A stretch of 64,000 nucleotides of DNA, taken from Halovenus aranensis. GTDB lineage: Archaea; Halobacteriota; Halobacteria; Halobacteriales; Haloarculaceae. The DNA is taken from positions 124,001-188,000 of the forward strand of contig NZ_FNFC01000005.1 in the NCBI RefSeq assembly GCF_900100385.1, written 5' to 3'. This document shows positions 37,825-44,272 of this stretch, one piece after another. The notes under the pieces are model-generated. The model worked only from the letters and a program-made list of their open reading frames with translations. It did not search any database and was not told where the DNA came from. Made by a program: the position numbers and the translations under genes. Position 1 is the first letter of the stretch. Each line of letters opens with the position of its first letter.

Positions 37825-38526
37825 ATGTCCGAGAAGACCGCAATCGTGACTGCCGCGGGGAGTGGCATCGGCGAGGCCTGTGCGCGCCGACTGGCCGAGG
37901 CGGGCTATGCGCCGGTCCTACTGTCGAAATCGGGGCGTGCCGTCGAGGTCGCAGAGGAACTTGGCGGCGACGGCTTCGAGGGCGACCTCACCGAGCCCGA
38001 CGACTTGGCGGCACTCGTCGACGCGACGCGAGAGCGGTACGGCCGCATCGACGCCGTGGTGAACAACACAGGCCACCCCGCGACGGGTGACCTGCTGGAG
38101 CTCTCAGACGAGGAGTGGCACGACGGACTGGACCTCGTTCTCCTGAATGCCGTCCGGATGGCGCGACTGGTCACGCCGGTCATGCAGTCACAGGGCGGCG
38201 GCGCAATCGTGAATATCTCGACGTTTTCGGCGTTCGAGCCGTCGGCCGAGTTTCCCGTCTCCTCGGTGCTCCGGGCAGGTCTCGGGAGTTTCACCAAACT
38301 CTATGCAGACCGCTACGCCGCCGACGACATCCGGATGAACGCCGTGTTGCCGGGGTTCGTCGACAGTTACGCGGTCGACGAGGAGACACGCGAGACAATT
38401 CCCATGGGTCGGCCCGGCCGAACGGAAGAAATCGCAGACACCGTCGCGTACCTCTGCTCACCGGAAGCCAGCTACGTGACCGGACAGAACATCCGTGTCG
38501 ACGGCGGGCTCACGTCGTCGGTGTAG
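37825..38526 (+). CDS. SDR-family protein lacking the catalytic Tyr and Lys
   Basis: A 233-residue Rossmann protein of the short-chain dehydrogenase/reductase family, starting at ATG 37825. The cofactor loop Thr-Ala-Ala-Gly-Ser-Gly-Ile-Gly is at 9-16, Asn-Asn-Thr-Gly at 80-83, and the catalytic Ser near 132. At the place of the Tyr-x-x-x-Lys motif, immediately before Ala-Gly-Leu, the sequence reads Ser146-Ser-Val-Leu-Arg150, so both catalytic residues are replaced. The rest of the fold is intact, so it probably binds a nucleotide but may not reduce ketones in the usual way. It precedes the thiolase gene by 94 bp on the same strand. Confidence 0.85.
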   Translation: MSEKTAIVTAAGSGIGEACARRLAEAGYAPVLLSKSGRAVEVAEELGGDGFEGDLTEPDDLAALVDATRERYGRIDAVVNNTGHPATGDLLELSDEEWHDGLDLVLLNAVRMARLVTPVMQSQGGGAIVNISTFSAFEPSAEFPVSSVLRAGLGSFTKLYADRYAADDIRMNAVLPGFVDSYAVDEETRETIPMGRPGRTEEIADTVAYLCSPEASYVTGQNIRVDGGLTSSV

Positions 38527-38620: not shown

Positions 38621-39796
38621 ATGCGCGACGCCTACCTCATCGGCGCGGGCCAGACGGCGTTCGGGGCGTTTCCCGAGCGCAGTTACCGGGACCTGTTCGC
38701 CGAGGCCTACCAGCACGCCTGCGAGCGCGTCGACGGTGGAATCGAACCGGGAGATATCGACGAGGCAGTCGTCGGCTCGCTCGGCGTCGGCGGCCGCCAG
38801 CTCGGGCTCTCCGGCCCGGCGGTAACCGAACACGTCGGCCTCCACAACGTCCCCTGTACGCGGGTCGAAAACGCCTGTGCCGCCGGCGGGTTCGCACTCC
38901 GCCAGGCCGTCCAGGCCATTCGCAGCGGCATGGCCGACGTCGTGCTGGCGAGTGGCTTCGAGGTGATGTCCGATATGTCTGGCGACGTGACGAAATACTG
39001 GCTGGGCGTCAGCGGCGAGACCGAGTGGGAACGGCTGACCGGGACGACGTTCTCGGGCGTCTACGCACAGATGGCGAGTGCCTACCTCGACCGCCACGAC
39101 GCGACCGCCGAAGACCTCTCGCGGGTGGCCGTCAAAAACCACGCCAACGGGGCGAAGAATCCGAAAGCCCACCTCGGCTTCGAGTGTTCACTCGAGGACG
39201 CCGTCGGCGCGCCCGAGGTTGCTGCGCCGCTGAACCTCTATCACTGCTGTCCGACCTCCGACGGGGCGGCAGTCGCACTGTTGGCAAGCGAGGACGTCGT
39301 CGAGGAGTACACCGACGAGCGAATCCGAGTTGCGGGCGTCGGCGCGGCAAGCGACCACGTCGGGCTGGCCGAGCGAGACAGCTACGTCGGCCTCTCGGCG
39401 ACCGAAACCGCCGCCGAGACGGCATACGACCGGGCAGGCGTCGACCCCTCGGCCCTCGATTTCGCCGAGATACACGACTGTTTTGCCATCGCGGAGTTAC
39501 TTGCCTACGAGGACCTGGGCTTTTGTGACCGCGGCGAGGCGGCCCGACTGCTCCGTGACGGCGTCACCGACCCCGACGGCGACCTGCCGGTGAACACCTC
39601 GGGCGGGCTGAAATCGAAGGGCCACCCAATCGGCGCGACGGGGACCGGACAGGTGGTCGAGGCCTTCGACCAGTTCACCGGGCAAGCGGGCGACCGACAG
39701 CTCGCCGAGCCCCGCTACGGCCTCACCCACAACGTCGGTGGGAGCGGCGGCGCGACGGTCGTTCACGTCTTCGAGAACGAGGAGGTGGCAGAATGA
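38621..39796 (+). CDS. Thiolase of the archaeal acetoacetyl-CoA thiolase / SCPx type
   Basis: A 391-residue enzyme starting at ATG 38621. The nucleophile is C86 (Glu-Asn-Ala-Cys-Ala-Ala-Gly-Gly); the His of the Gly-His-Pro-Ile-Gly-Ala-Thr-Gly loop is H335, and a second His is H370 in His-Asn-Val-Gly-Gly-Ser-Gly-Gly. This places it in the SCPx-like thiolases, which in archaea form a complex with HMG-CoA synthase bridged by a DUF35 protein. The next gene, overlapping by 4 bp, encodes a synthase-like::DUF35 fusion, so the two proteins very likely assemble. The acyl substrate is uncertain. Confidence 0.9.
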   Translation: MRDAYLIGAGQTAFGAFPERSYRDLFAEAYQHACERVDGGIEPGDIDEAVVGSLGVGGRQLGLSGPAVTEHVGLHNVPCTRVENACAAGGFALRQAVQAIRSGMADVVLASGFEVMSDMSGDVTKYWLGVSGETEWERLTGTTFSGVYAQMASAYLDRHDATAEDLSRVAVKNHANGAKNPKAHLGFECSLEDAVGAPEVAAPLNLYHCCPTSDGAAVALLASEDVVEEYTDERIRVAGVGAASDHVGLAERDSYVGLSATETAAETAYDRAGVDPSALDFAEIHDCFAIAELLAYEDLGFCDRGEAARLLRDGVTDPDGDLPVNTSGGLKSKGHPIGATGTGQVVEAFDQFTGQAGDRQLAEPRYGLTHNVGGSGGATVVHVFENEEVAE

Positions 39797-41202
39797 GCCG
39801 TATCGAGAGCGTCGGCACGTACGTCCCGCGGTATCGCCTGTCGGCCGAGACTGTCCGGGAAGCCTGGGGCCAGTTCCACGGTGCCGGCATCACCGAGACG
39901 GCGGTTCCGGGTGCCGACGAAGACACGCTGACGATGGGTTACGAGGCCGCCTCGCGGGCGCTCGCGGCTGGGAGCGTCGACCCGAGAGGGGTGGACCGCC
40001 TGCTCGTCGCAACGACGACGCCCCCGACAGAAGAGGAGGCGATGGGGCCTCGCCTCGTTAGCATGCTCGGGCTGGGAGCGGCGACGCAGACCCGCCAGCT
40101 CACCGGGAGCACGCGGGCCGGCGTCGAGGCGCTGGTGGCCGGCACACAGACAGACCAGACGACACTCGTCGTCGCGACTGACGCCCCTCGGGGCTCCCCA
40201 GACGGCGAACACGAACACGCAGGTGGTGCCGGCGCGTTCGCGGCGGTACTCGCGCCGTCGGCCCCGGGCGAGATACCGGCACACGCAGACCACGTCGACC
40301 CGCATCCGGGAACGCGCTTTCGTCCCGCCGGCTCAGCAGAGACGACGGGGCTTGGTGTCACCGACTACGACCGCTCGGCGTTCGTCGAGACAGTCGGCCA
40401 GGCAGTCGACACACTCGATATCGACCCGAGCACGGCCGACGCGGTCGCCCTGCAGTCACCGAACGGCAAACTCCCCTACCGCGCGACAGGGCGACTCGGC
40501 GTCGAGGCCGACACAATCCAGCGGGGGACAGTCGTCCACGAGGTCGGAGACGCCGGCACAGCAGGACCGCTACTCGGGCTGGCGACCGCGTTCGCTGACG
40601 GTGCCGAGCGCGTGCTCGTCGTCGGCTACAGCGACGGCGCGACAGCCGCGGTCGTCGAAGACGGTGGCGTGACACACACACCGACGGGAGACACCGAGAC
40701 TGTCGACCTCTCGTATGGCGAATACCTGCGCATGCGCGGCGAGATTACGAGCGGCGAGCCAGACGGCGGCGGTGCCTACGTCAGCGTTCCGAGCTGGAAG
40801 CGAACACTCGCCCAGCGACACCGTCTGGTCGCCGGTCGCTGCCCTGACTGTGATGCGCTCTCGTTCCCGCCCGAGGGTGCCTGTCAGGGCTGTCACACGC
40901 TCGTCGAGTACGACTCCGTCGAGCTTCCCGGCACCGGTACCGTCGAGGCGGTAACGGCAATCGGTCAGGGCGGCGCACCCACAGAGTTCGTCGAGCAACA
41001 GGCCCGGAGTGGCACGTACGTCAGCGCCGTCGTCGCACTCGACGGTCCCGACGGCGAACAGACGGTGTCGATTCCCGCGCAGGTCGTCGGCGTCGACCCC
41101 GATGCGGTCGACATCGGCGACAGACTCACCGCGACGGTGCGACGTCTCTACACGCAGGAAGAGGTCACGCGATACGGCTTCAAAATGCTCCCGGCAAAGT
41201 GA
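39793..41202 (+). CDS. HMG-CoA-synthase-like protein fused to DUF35, catalytic residues missing
   Basis: A 469-residue fusion. Residues 1-320 have the thiolase-fold pattern of archaeal HMG-CoA synthase. However, the position of the catalytic Cys is Thr107 (Gly-Ser-Thr-Arg-Ala-Gly), and the catalytic His before Pro-Asn-Gly-Lys is Gln221. Residues about 330-469 are a DUF35 unit: a rubredoxin-like zinc ribbon (C350, C353, C364, C367) and an OB fold. It overlaps the thiolase stop by 4 bp (translational coupling). By analogy with the archaeal thiolase-DUF35-synthase complex, it is probably a scaffold or substrate-channel partner for the thiolase, not an HMG-CoA synthase. A separate, active synthase would then be expected elsewhere. 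Confidence 0.85.
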   Translation: MSRIESVGTYVPRYRLSAETVREAWGQFHGAGITETAVPGADEDTLTMGYEAASRALAAGSVDPRGVDRLLVATTTPPTEEEAMGPRLVSMLGLGAATQTRQLTGSTRAGVEALVAGTQTDQTTLVVATDAPRGSPDGEHEHAGGAGAFAAVLAPSAPGEIPAHADHVDPHPGTRFRPAGSAETTGLGVTDYDRSAFVETVGQAVDTLDIDPSTADAVALQSPNGKLPYRATGRLGVEADTIQRGTVVHEVGDAGTAGPLLGLATAFADGAERVLVVGYSDGATAAVVEDGGVTHTPTGDTETVDLSYGEYLRMRGEITSGEPDGGGAYVSVPSWKRTLAQRHRLVAGRCPDCDALSFPPEGACQGCHTLVEYDSVELPGTGTVEAVTAIGQGGAPTEFVEQQARSGTYVSAVVALDGPDGEQTVSIPAQVVGVDPDAVDIGDRLTATVRRLYTQEEVTRYGFKMLPAK

Positions 41203-41207
41203 ACGGG

Positions 41208-43100
41208 TCAGCCCTGCCAGGGGTCGGCTAACTCGACGCCGGTAACCTCGAACCGTGCGCCGCCCTCGGTTCCGTCAGTGATGGTTATCTCCCAGTCGTG
41301 AGCTTCGACTATCGTCTCGACGATGTGGAGACCGAACCCGGTCCCGTCCTCGGCCGTCGAGTAGCCGACCTCGAACACCTGGTCGCGCTCTGCGGGCGGG
41401 ATTCCCGGGCCGTCATCGTCGATGTAGAACCCGTCTGGGAGGTCACCGACGGTGACAGTCACGTCACGGCTTGCGTGCTCGTGGGCGTTCCGGAGGAGGT
41501 TCTCGAACAGCCGCTGGAGGCGGTGGTCGTCGGCGTATATCTCCCGGTCGGTCTGGACGGTCAGCGTCGAGTCCGGTCCCGCGACCCGCTCCCAGCAGCG
41601 GTCGACGAGCTCCGGCAGCGAGACCGTCGTCAGGTCAATCGAGGTATCGCCCTCTCTGGCGAGGGTCAGCAGGTCGGTGATGATGGCTTCCATCCTGTCG
41701 AGGGCGCGCCCGACGGCCTCGACGTGCTCGTCGCTGTGCTCCTGTTCGACGAGTTCGAGCTGCGTGTTCGCCGCGTTTAGCGGGTTTCGCAGGTCGTGTG
41801 AGACGAGATTGGCGAACTCGCCGAGACGCTGGTTCTGTCGTTCGAGCTCCGTGCGGTACTGCTGGCGTTCGATTTCGTAGCCGACCCAGCGGGAGGCGAG
41901 CTCGACGAACGTTCGTTCGCTCTCGGTAAAGTCACGGGACCGAGGGGAGTCCGACGCGAAACAGAGGGTCCCGTAGAGTTCGTCGTTGACGATTATTTTT
42001 CCGCCGAGATAACAGCCGAGCTGGAAGGTGTCGTACGCCGGGTCGTCACCCCACCCGTCGGCGAGGGCGTCGAAGACGGCGAGCAGGCCGTCAGACTCGA
42101 TTGTCCGCCTGCAGTACGACTCCTCGAGCGGACACTGCTCGCCGGGCTGGAGAAGCTCGTGGTCCCCGCGAGAGGCTTCGATGAGCTGTGTCTCGTCGGT
42201 AATCTGGGTGAGAAAGCCGTACGGGAGGTCGAGACGGCGACAGCCGAGTTCGAGTATCCGGTCGAGTCGGTACTCGAAGGAGTAGCCGCTGTCGGACCCA
42301 AGCACGTACAGGTCGTGCAGAACCTCGACGGTGTCTTCCAGTTCGTCGATGGCGCGGCGTTTCTCGGTGACATCTTGGAAGAAGACAGACAGCCCCGTCT
42401 CCGAGGGGTAGACATTCACCTCGAACCAGGTGTCGAGTGGTTCGTAATAGGCCTCGAAGGTAGCCGTCTCACCGGTCTCGAAGGCCTGTTCGTATTTTTC
42501 GTAAAATCGCGTCCCGACTATCTCGGGAATCTCGTCCCAGATGCGTCGTCCCTGCAGGTCGGTGAACGAGAGGTCCGCTCCGATGGCCTCACGGATTATC
42601 TCGTGGGCCTGCTCGTTGAGATACGTAAACCGCCGATTACCGTCGAGGGCAAAGAAGGCGTCAGTCATCCGGTCGAGGATGTCAATACGCCCGCCCTGGC
42701 CGCGAAACGTCTGTTCTCGGAGGTCGCTAACTTCGAGAAGTATGACGGTGCCATCTGCTACAGACAGGGTCGCCGTACTGAGCGTGACTGGAACCGGTTC
42801 GCCGTCACTGGTGCTCATCGCCCACTCGAAGGTCTGGTCGCCCGCCGTTGCCGTCTGCTGAACCTGCTCACAGAGAGTCGCCTCCGTAGCAGGCGCAACA
42901 GCCGAGTCAAGCTCAGCCAGCGAGCACTCTTGTAATTGGTCATGGGAGTATCCGAGCAGGTCACAGGCCGTGTCGTTACAGCCGAGTATCGCATCCGCGT
43001 CGTGGTCGTAGAGCAGTAGGCTGGTATCGACCGAATCGTAGACCTGGCGAAGCAGCTCGTCGTCGATGTGACCCACATCATCACTGCCACTACCGGCCAT
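41208..43100 (-). CDS. PAS-PAS-GAF sensor histidine kinase
   Basis: A 630-residue soluble kinase starting at ATG 43100; an upstream in-frame extension is Arg/Cys-rich. Two PAS domains (about 15-125 and 135-260) are followed by a GAF domain (about 285-415), a dimerisation helix with the phospho-acceptor H435 in Ser-His-Asp-Leu-Arg-Asn-Pro, and an ATPase domain with Asn-Ala-x-Glu-His, Asp-Asp-Asp-Gly-Pro-Gly-Ile and Gly-Thr-Gly-Phe-Gly-Leu. No membrane helix is seen, so it senses a cytoplasmic signal such as redox state or light via a bound cofactor. Haloarchaea often leave such kinases orphan, and no response regulator lies nearby. Confidence 0.93.
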
Positions 43101-43138
43101 AGCAGTATCTTCCCGACGGTCGTTCAAAAAACTATGTT

Positions 43139-44272
43139 TCACGCAGGGCGCTCGAACACCGCGGCGACACCCTGCCCGAAGCCGACACACATCGTCGCCA
43201 GTCCGAACTGGCCCTCGCGTCGGCGGAGTTCGTGTAGTAGCGTCGTCGTGATGCGCGCTCCCGAACAGCCCAGCGGATGGCCGAGCGCAATTGCGCCGCC
43301 GTTGACGTTCAGCCGGTCGGACGGTATCCCGAGTTCGCGCCGACAGTAGATACTCTGTGAGGCAAACGCCTCGTTCAACTCCACGAGGTCGAGGTCCTCG
43401 ACAGCGAGGTCAGTACCGGCAAGTGCCTCTCTGGTCGCTGGCACCGGCCCAGTCCCCATAACCCGTGGGTCGACACCCGCGACACCGCGGGAGTGGACCC
43501 GGGCGAGAATATCGAGGTCGTGTTCGCGGGCGTACGCCGCACTGGTGACGAGCATCCCCGCTGCACCGTCGGTCAGCGGCGAGGCGTTGCCCGGTGTGAC
43601 TGTCGCGGCGTCGTCGTCGGCAAAGACCGTCGGCAGGTCTGCGAGCGCGTCCATCGATGTCGACTCCCGTGGCCCTTCGTCAGTTTCGACGGTCCCGTCG
43701 TCAGTCTCGACAGGGACGATTTCGTCGTCGAACCGGCCTGAATCACGGGCCTCGACTGCGCGCTCGTGTGAGCGCAGAGCAAATCGGTCCTGTTCCTCCC
43801 GACTGATGTCGTGTTCGCGAGCCACGCGCTCGGCCGTCGCGCCCATCGGCAACTCGTCGGCGTCGTACCGCTTCTCGATACCCGGGTGGAGCCAGTCCGA
43901 AAACGGCACACGGCTCATGTGCTCGACGCCGGCGACCGGGACCACGTCGCCGTCGCCCGCTTCGACCGCTCGGGCCGCATCGACCAGCGCCGTCAGCGAG
44001 GAGCCACACAGCCGGGTCAGCGTCGCTCCGGGTACCGACTCGGGAAAGCCACCGGCGAGCAGCGACTGTCTGGCGAGGTTGCGTCCCTGTTCGTTCTCCT
44101 GATTCGCACAGCCGAGCCGGAAGTCGTCCCACTCGGCTGCCGGGACGCCGGTGCGTTCTTCCAGCGCCGAGAGGACCGTGACGACGAGGTCCTCGGGGTA
44201 AGTCTCTGCCAGCCCGCCGTCTTTGCGTGCCTGTGGCGTCCGGACCGCGTCGACGATGACAGCGTCAGTCAT
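43139..44272 (-). CDS. Thiolase (acetyl-CoA C-acyltransferase)
   Basis: A 377-residue classical thiolase with the nucleophile C89 (Arg-Leu-Cys-Gly-Ser-Ser), the Gly-His-Pro-Leu-Gly loop H332 and the C-terminal base C362 (Met-Cys-Val-Gly-Phe-Gly-Gln-Gly). The second Cys distinguishes it from the SCPx-type enzyme at 38621. Likely role: the last step of beta-oxidation-like fatty-acid or aromatic degradation, or condensation of acetyl-CoA. It follows the kinase gene on the same strand, 38 bp from that gene's start, but the two are unlikely to be functionally linked. Confidence 0.92.

Follow-up and report, generated by a model that had tools for sequence, protein, structure and literature searches.

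A haloarchaeal HMG-CoA synthase-like::DUF35 fusion that has lost the synthase catalytic residues is paired with an intact thiolase gene and associated with phenylacetate degradation genes

Introduction

HMG-CoA synthase (HMGCS) is an enzyme of the cholesterol pathway. The archaeal thiolase/HMGCS/DUF35 complex has two active sites that share a single CoA site (PMC6392133, PMC12329534), and DUF35 domains are scaffolds that hold such multienzyme complexes together (PMC12329534). In PhlABC, the HMGCS-like subunit PhlA lacks the catalytic Cys and Glu and the thiolase-like PhlC is the sole catalytic subunit (PMC6392133); the functional enzyme requires all three subunits (PMC6392133, PMC12955522).

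Here we describe a related locus in a 64,000-nt stretch of Halovenus aranensis DNA (assembly GCF_900100385.1, contig NZ_FNFC01000005.1, forward-strand positions 124,001 to 188,000), referred to below as the window, in which an HMGCS-like domain is fused to a DUF35 module and encoded next to a thiolase. We found no paper on the function of the haloarchaeal family to which this fusion belongs.

Results

An HMGCS-like::DUF35 fusion gene overlaps a thiolase gene

The first-pass annotation had described the fusion as overlapping the thiolase gene and as retaining both the synthase fold and the DUF35 ribbon. We confirmed the ORF, its frame and its coordinates: the fusion starts with an ATG at 39793, ends with a stop at 41202 and encodes 469 aa, and the upstream thiolase ORF runs from an ATG at 38621 to a stop ending at 39796, giving a 4-nt overlap (ATGA) with the start of the fusion. 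A scan for promoters and terminators gave no signal above chance. The features of the locus, in window coordinates, are as follows.

37825..38526, + strand: gene of the SDR family, lying 94 nt ahead of the thiolase (listed for context only)
38621..39796, + strand: SCP2-type partner thiolase, 391 aa, Cys86/His285/His335 intact (Pfam, structure-sequence search, locus alignment)
39793..41202, + strand: HMGCS-like::DUF35 (zinc ribbon and OB fold) fusion, predicted to be catalytically dead, 469 aa (ORF, Pfam, profiles, AlphaFold, fold match)
39793..40692, + strand: HMGCS-like (thiolase-fold) domain, about aa 1-300, cysteine-free (profile search, structure comparison)
40015..40017, + strand: Thr75 codon, at the position of catalytic Glu82 in HMGCS (multiple alignment)
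40111..40113, + strand: Thr107 codon, at the position of nucleophile Cys114 in HMGCS (phmmer, homologue counts, multiple alignment)
40453..40455, + strand: Gln221 codon, at the position of catalytic His238 in HMGCS (phmmer, homologue counts, multiple alignment)
40549..40551, + strand: Asp253 codon, at the position of Asn270 in HMGCS (homologue counts, multiple alignment)
40693..40806, + strand: conserved linker, about aa 301-338, with low model confidence at 323-336 (homologues, AlphaFold)
40807..40908, + strand: rubredoxin-like zinc ribbon (zf-ChsH2), Cys350/353/364/367 (Pfam, homologue counts)
40909..41199, + strand: OB-fold domain, OB_ChsH2_C (Pfam)
43139..44272, - strand: classical acyl-CoA thiolase (Pfam/NCBIfam, locus comparison)

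The structural evidence agreed with an intact fold. A single-chain AlphaFold model of the fusion, built from a 65-sequence alignment from which plasmid-record sequences were excluded, had a pLDDT of 89.4 and a pTM of 0.91; an 18-sequence alignment gave a model with pLDDT 69.8. The top structural matches were the HMGCS chain 6esq_I, which superposed with Z 40.8 and an rmsd of 2.1 across 317 residues, and PhlA, with Z values of 38.6-39.8. Both halves of the DUF35 module scored over the Pfam cut-off (zf-ChsH2, 34.0 bits; OB_ChsH2_C, 34.6 bits). PF01154 did not reach its gathering score on the fusion, and Pfam alone would therefore miss the synthase-like domain. The closest named relative of the fusion gene is in Halovenus salina (81% protein identity).

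All four catalytic positions of the synthase are altered

Comparison with Methanothermococcus HMGCS (6ESQ chain I) revealed changes at 4/4 catalytic positions: Glu82 to Thr75, Cys114 to Thr107, His238 to Gln221 and Asn270 to Asp253. Two of these, Thr107 for the catalytic Cys and Gln221 for the catalytic His, had been proposed in the first-pass annotation, and both pairings were recovered by phmmer, profile search and multiple alignment; the losses of Glu82 and Asn270 were absent from it. In the multiple alignment, E, C, H and N are intact in all 12 of the canonical archaeal HMGCS proteins compared, and the fusion has T/T/Q/D. The synthase-like domain contains no cysteine, the sole cysteines of the protein being the zinc ligands at 350, 353, 364 and 367. 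We looked for another Cys and His that could be placed in the active site and rejected this option, since the domain has no Cys and its only commonly conserved His, H142, is Gln in five alignment rows; the assignment as a pseudo-enzyme was thus not refuted. We also rejected the possibility that the fusion is the mevalonate-pathway HMGCS, because the catalytic positions are lost, the archaeal HMGCS models NF003274 and TIGR00748 match well below their curated cut-offs (133.8 vs 244 bits and 66.3 vs 353.35 bits, respectively), and a separate HMGCS gene is present in the same genome.

The altered site is conserved and under purifying selection

The replacement residues are close to fixed among named haloarchaeal homologues. 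Thr107 was found in 80/80 informative sequences from about 45 genera, one extra row having a contig-truncated start at this position and no genuine change; Gln221 and Asp253 were each found in 80/81, and the zinc Cys4 site in 81/81. Frequencies as high as those of Thr107, Gln221 and the Cys4 site lie well outside what chance would produce. The synthase-like domain has a dN/dS of 0.11-0.22 (eight species pairs), indicating purifying selection, and the listed homologues have an intact frame with no internal stops. With fused and split forms taken together, the family is present in 179/292 sampled genomes of the class. Alteration of four of four catalytic positions is what one might cite in favour of a decaying gene whose catalytic residues were lost through drift, but replacements that stay the same across some 45 named genera, the low dN/dS and the intact frame all argue against it. 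We regard decay as having next to no chance of being correct and ruled out a pseudogene on the basis of purifying selection and the invariant replacement residues; the near-fixation of Thr107 and Gln221 under such selection means that the loss of catalytic residues is not decay. Taken together, the loss of four positions, the lack of Cys, the family-wide occurrence of the changes and purifying selection make it a well-supported prediction from sequence comparison that the domain is dead for HMG-CoA synthase chemistry, as the pseudo-enzyme claim had held.

Four further residues, Arg87, Arg175, Tyr192 and Arg194, do not vary among the fused haloarchaeal proteins, and HMGCS has other residues at these positions. 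Fixed and family-specific invariant residues suggest that the pocket is kept up for some purpose. They could be taken to mean that the synthase-like domain retains a catalytic activity of some kind, using Thr107 or another nucleophile, or that it is a second, regulatory site that binds a CoA thioester. Against residual catalysis, none of the catalytic Cys, His, Glu and Asn residues remains in this cysteine-free domain, and relatives that fill an equivalent role differ from group to group at the Cys position (Thr, Pro, Gln, Ala, Phe or Met, with Gly in PhlA and Glu in MucA), which argues against a conserved nucleophile. We consider residual catalysis or a second regulatory site improbable.

The partner thiolase is intact and its gene is consistently adjacent

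A thiolase ORF adjoins the start of the fusion in 76/80 named loci, mostly with the 4-nt overlap; the nucleophile Cys and the two His residues are present in 75 of these 76 partner thiolases. With thiolase residues kept and synthase residues lost, the ancestral pair of active sites appears to have been reduced to one. In Halobaculum, Natrinema halophilum and two more haloarchaeal genomes we observed a split form, in which the thiolase, HMGCS-like and DUF35 proteins are encoded by three neighbouring genes; the separate-subunit forms in Halobaculum and Natrinema indicate that the fusion unites subunits of one complex. Phylogenetic analysis separated canonical HMGCS (support 99/99), a PhlA/MucA group (100/98) and the fused haloarchaeal family, including the window protein (99/94), with the three-subunit haloarchaeal form (99/98) beside the fused family; the deepest branching is weakly supported. 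One haloarchaeal genome has two different split HMGCS-like, DUF35 and thiolase sets close together (locus L147, 4584-6115 and 9913-12071), both synthase-dead in their predicted active sites.

We considered whether the complex might act not as a thiolase but, like PhlABC, as an aromatic C-acyltransferase, a type marked by CoA-independent C-acylation of phenols. PhlA is the best solved relative of the fusion by phmmer (E 1e-16), and the two proteins carry the same replacements for the catalytic His (Gln) and Asn (Asp). By contrast, the best solved relative of the partner thiolase is the acetoacetyl-CoA thiolase of 6ESQ (chain A, E 5.6e-86), which is far nearer than PhlC (E about 1e-27 to 1e-28); PhlA and MucA form their own clade, and the gene context is one of catabolic CoA chemistry. 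An acyltransferase of this kind is therefore very unlikely.

The likeliest role for this dead domain, fused to a zinc-binding helper and paired with an intact thiolase, is a structural one, as that thiolase's partner. The conserved gene pairing and the homology with 6ESQ and PhlABC suggest that the fusion shapes the thiolase complex. We infer a physical complex, a scaffold or pocket role for the fusion and a degradative function for the thiolase, and we assign a probability of roughly 0.62 to the reading that the dead HMGCS-like::DUF35 protein is the obligate non-catalytic partner of an SCP2-type thiolase that degrades phenylacetate or related aromatic acids. In such a complex, the DUF35 part would clasp and dock the thiolase, as homology with 6ESQ and PhlABC suggests, and the synthase-like part would supply the opposite wall of the acyl-CoA site that the two share, as well as stabilising the oligomer. 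All making and breaking of bonds, including thiolytic cleavage, would take place on Cys86, His285 and His335 of the thiolase. Arg87, Arg175, Tyr192 and Arg194 suggest a reshaped dead pocket, which might, speculatively, accommodate the acyl-CoA or a distal carboxylate.

The fusion family is associated with phenylacetate degradation genes

We compared the distribution of the family with that of PaaA_PaaC across the 292 genomes. Both were present in 152, only the family in 27, only paa in 6 and neither in 107, counts that are unadjusted for genome size. Within five genera that are mixed for paa, the family occurs in 15/16 genomes with paa and 4/22 without (stratified permutation p 5e-5, covering only genomes with a listed genus). 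In annotated relatives that include Haloferax mediterranei, Halorubrum and Haloarcula, the thiolase-fusion pair lies inside paa clusters that also contain paaABCDE, paaK, paaI, MaoC, 3-hydroxyacyl-CoA dehydrogenase and enoyl-CoA hydratase, with a classical thiolase frequently present as well. In Haloferax mediterranei ATCC 33500 the fusion is E6P09_RS16145, its thiolase E6P09_RS16140 and the neighbouring classical thiolase E6P09_RS16150. Within the stretch searched around each of 80 named loci, paaA/C/D/K/I were found at 28, and either these genes or a paa-type dehydrogenase (HADH) at 43; neither was found at 37. No paaA or paaC is near the fusion within the window, and those of H. aranensis are on another contig (C26), so that in its own genome the link with paa is one of genome content rather than neighbourhood.

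An alternative that would keep the scaffold role makes the thiolase a beta-ketothiolase of biosynthetic or general function, comparable to the PHA-making PhaA and BktB, with the paa link secondary. PhaA and BktB of Haloferax mediterranei consist of a thiolase subunit and an essential OB-fold subunit (PMC7137286), 37/80 loci lie outside paa clusters, and 27 genomes have the fusion but lack paa. Nonetheless, the alpha-subunit nucleophile of PhaA and BktB is Ser, whereas the partner thiolase family has Cys in 75/76; the H. aranensis genome has two other thiolase and DUF35 pairs, one with Ser; and co-occurrence with paaA/C is strong, within genera too. We therefore view a biosynthetic or general function as unlikely. 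The 27 genomes with the family and without paaA/C do indicate that further substrates, besides those of the phenylacetate type, are likely.

The degradative reading can be made more specific, since the pair is possibly a haloarchaeal stand-in for PaaJ, carrying out PaaJ-type cleavage of 3-oxo-dicarboxylyl-CoA; a PaaJ-type thiolase acts on 3-oxoadipyl-CoA and 3-oxo-5,6-dehydrosuberyl-CoA. The pair is the sole thiolase listed in the paaK cluster of Haloferax alexandrinus, and at several loci, Halolamina and Halorussus among them, no further thiolase was found in the cluster; many paa clusters also carry a classical thiolase that could perform the PaaJ steps. A classical thiolase homologue lies directly beside the fusion in most paa clusters, and in the window a histidine kinase gene (41208-43190) intervenes. 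We tentatively propose, as a possibility that we hold to be doubtful, that haloarchaea swapped PaaJ for an SCP2-type thiolase plus a dead HMGCS::DUF35 protein, with a pocket (Thr107, Gln221, Arg87, Arg175, Tyr192, Arg194) rebuilt for dicarboxylyl-CoA across the shared site. A 2026 survey found phenylacetate pathways to be only partial in Halobacteria (PMC13186573). Replacement of PaaJ, if true, would help to account for archaeal phenylacetate pathways reported as incomplete, and the fusion would point to the thiolase that is missing from this archaeal pathway.

On plasmids of Haladaptatus and Halalkalicoccus (loci L143 and L179), the pair has as neighbours two UbiD-family decarboxylases, a protein with a metallo-beta-lactamase fold and a second oxygenase set, divergent but resembling PaaA/PaaC. 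This gene group is possibly an undescribed aromatic-acid pathway.

Other altered active sites near the locus and in related thiolase complexes

We made several observations on other proteins. The SDR-family gene upstream of the thiolase was found, among 40 relatives searched, in just one other Halovenus genome (locus L032, 6054-6752), and both copies have FPVSS at the position of the YxxxK catalytic motif; the SDR protein is a possible second pseudo-enzyme in the same gene string. The two additional thiolase and DUF35 pairs of the H. aranensis genome (contigs C15, 43136-44619, and C19, 50744-52179) have no synthase-like domain, and the residue at the nucleophile position is Cys in one thiolase and Ser in the other. 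At least 24 mevalonate-operon loci (L182-L209, L149, L150, L152, L156, L157) have a thiolase in which the nucleophile Cys is changed to Asp (VEAxDASGG) and HDC to HDS, and the neighbouring HMGCS keeps an intact Cys motif in nearly all, the mirror image of the fusion; from these motifs, the thiolase of those complexes looks dead.

Discussion

We propose that a metabolic enzyme has been turned into a permanent structural subunit, kept in most haloarchaea and frozen by fusion with a docking domain. The first-pass annotation had regarded the locus as a twist on the archaeal thiolase-DUF35-synthase assembly. Kinship with that assembly holds, by fold, operon and the proximity of the thiolase to 6ESQ chain A, but the twist is smaller than had been thought, because PhlA already provides a known example of a complex of this kind with a dead HMGCS-like subunit. 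By alignment, MucA is a second precedent. New here are the fusion itself, a dead family across haloarchaea with invariant residues of its own, and the strong tie to phenylacetate degradation.

The locus resembles the archaeal thiolase/HMGCS/DUF35 complex (6ESQ) in its three components and their folds, the thiolase catalytic residues, the adjacent genes and the Cys4 zinc ribbon. It differs in that the synthase site of the fusion appears dead (E/C/H/N to T/T/Q/D), the synthase-like and DUF35 parts are fused, family members occur in aromatic-acid degradation clusters, and the genome has its separate HMGCS gene.

The bacterial complexes with a comparable HMGCS-like chain are more distant. In the Friedel-Crafts acylase PhlABC (Pseudomonas protegens 5M3K, Chromobacterium sphagni 9SKH), PhlA has Gly115 at the Cys position and Cys83 at the Glu position and, by alignment, the same Gln and Asp as the fusion at the His and Asn positions; unlike our locus, PhlABC is encoded by three separate genes with no fusion, its thiolase is only distantly related to the partner thiolase, and PhlA groups with MucA in a separate clade. 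The HMGCS-like chain of the MucABC acyltransferase (Streptococcus macacae, 9VBO/9VBT) likewise aligns with Gln at the His position and has Glu at the Cys position, but this is a bacterial multi-component acyltransferase and very divergent (branch 2.2).

Dead HMGCS-like::DUF35 fusions, judged by their residues, also occur elsewhere. A further archaeal family includes another such version, and plasmids of Novosphingobium, Sphingobium and Variovorax encode an 'OB-fold domain-containing protein' of this architecture beside a Cys thiolase annotated as acetyl-CoA acetyltransferase. The latter have Gln at the Cys position, share 24-27% identity and belong to a separate clade; we found no description of their function in the literature. 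Within haloarchaea, the PhaA and BktB alpha-beta ketothiolases of Haloferax mediterranei share with the pair described here the combination of a thiolase subunit with an essential OB-fold subunit, but they have Ser rather than Cys as nucleophile, have no reported synthase-like domain, and serve PHBV synthesis.
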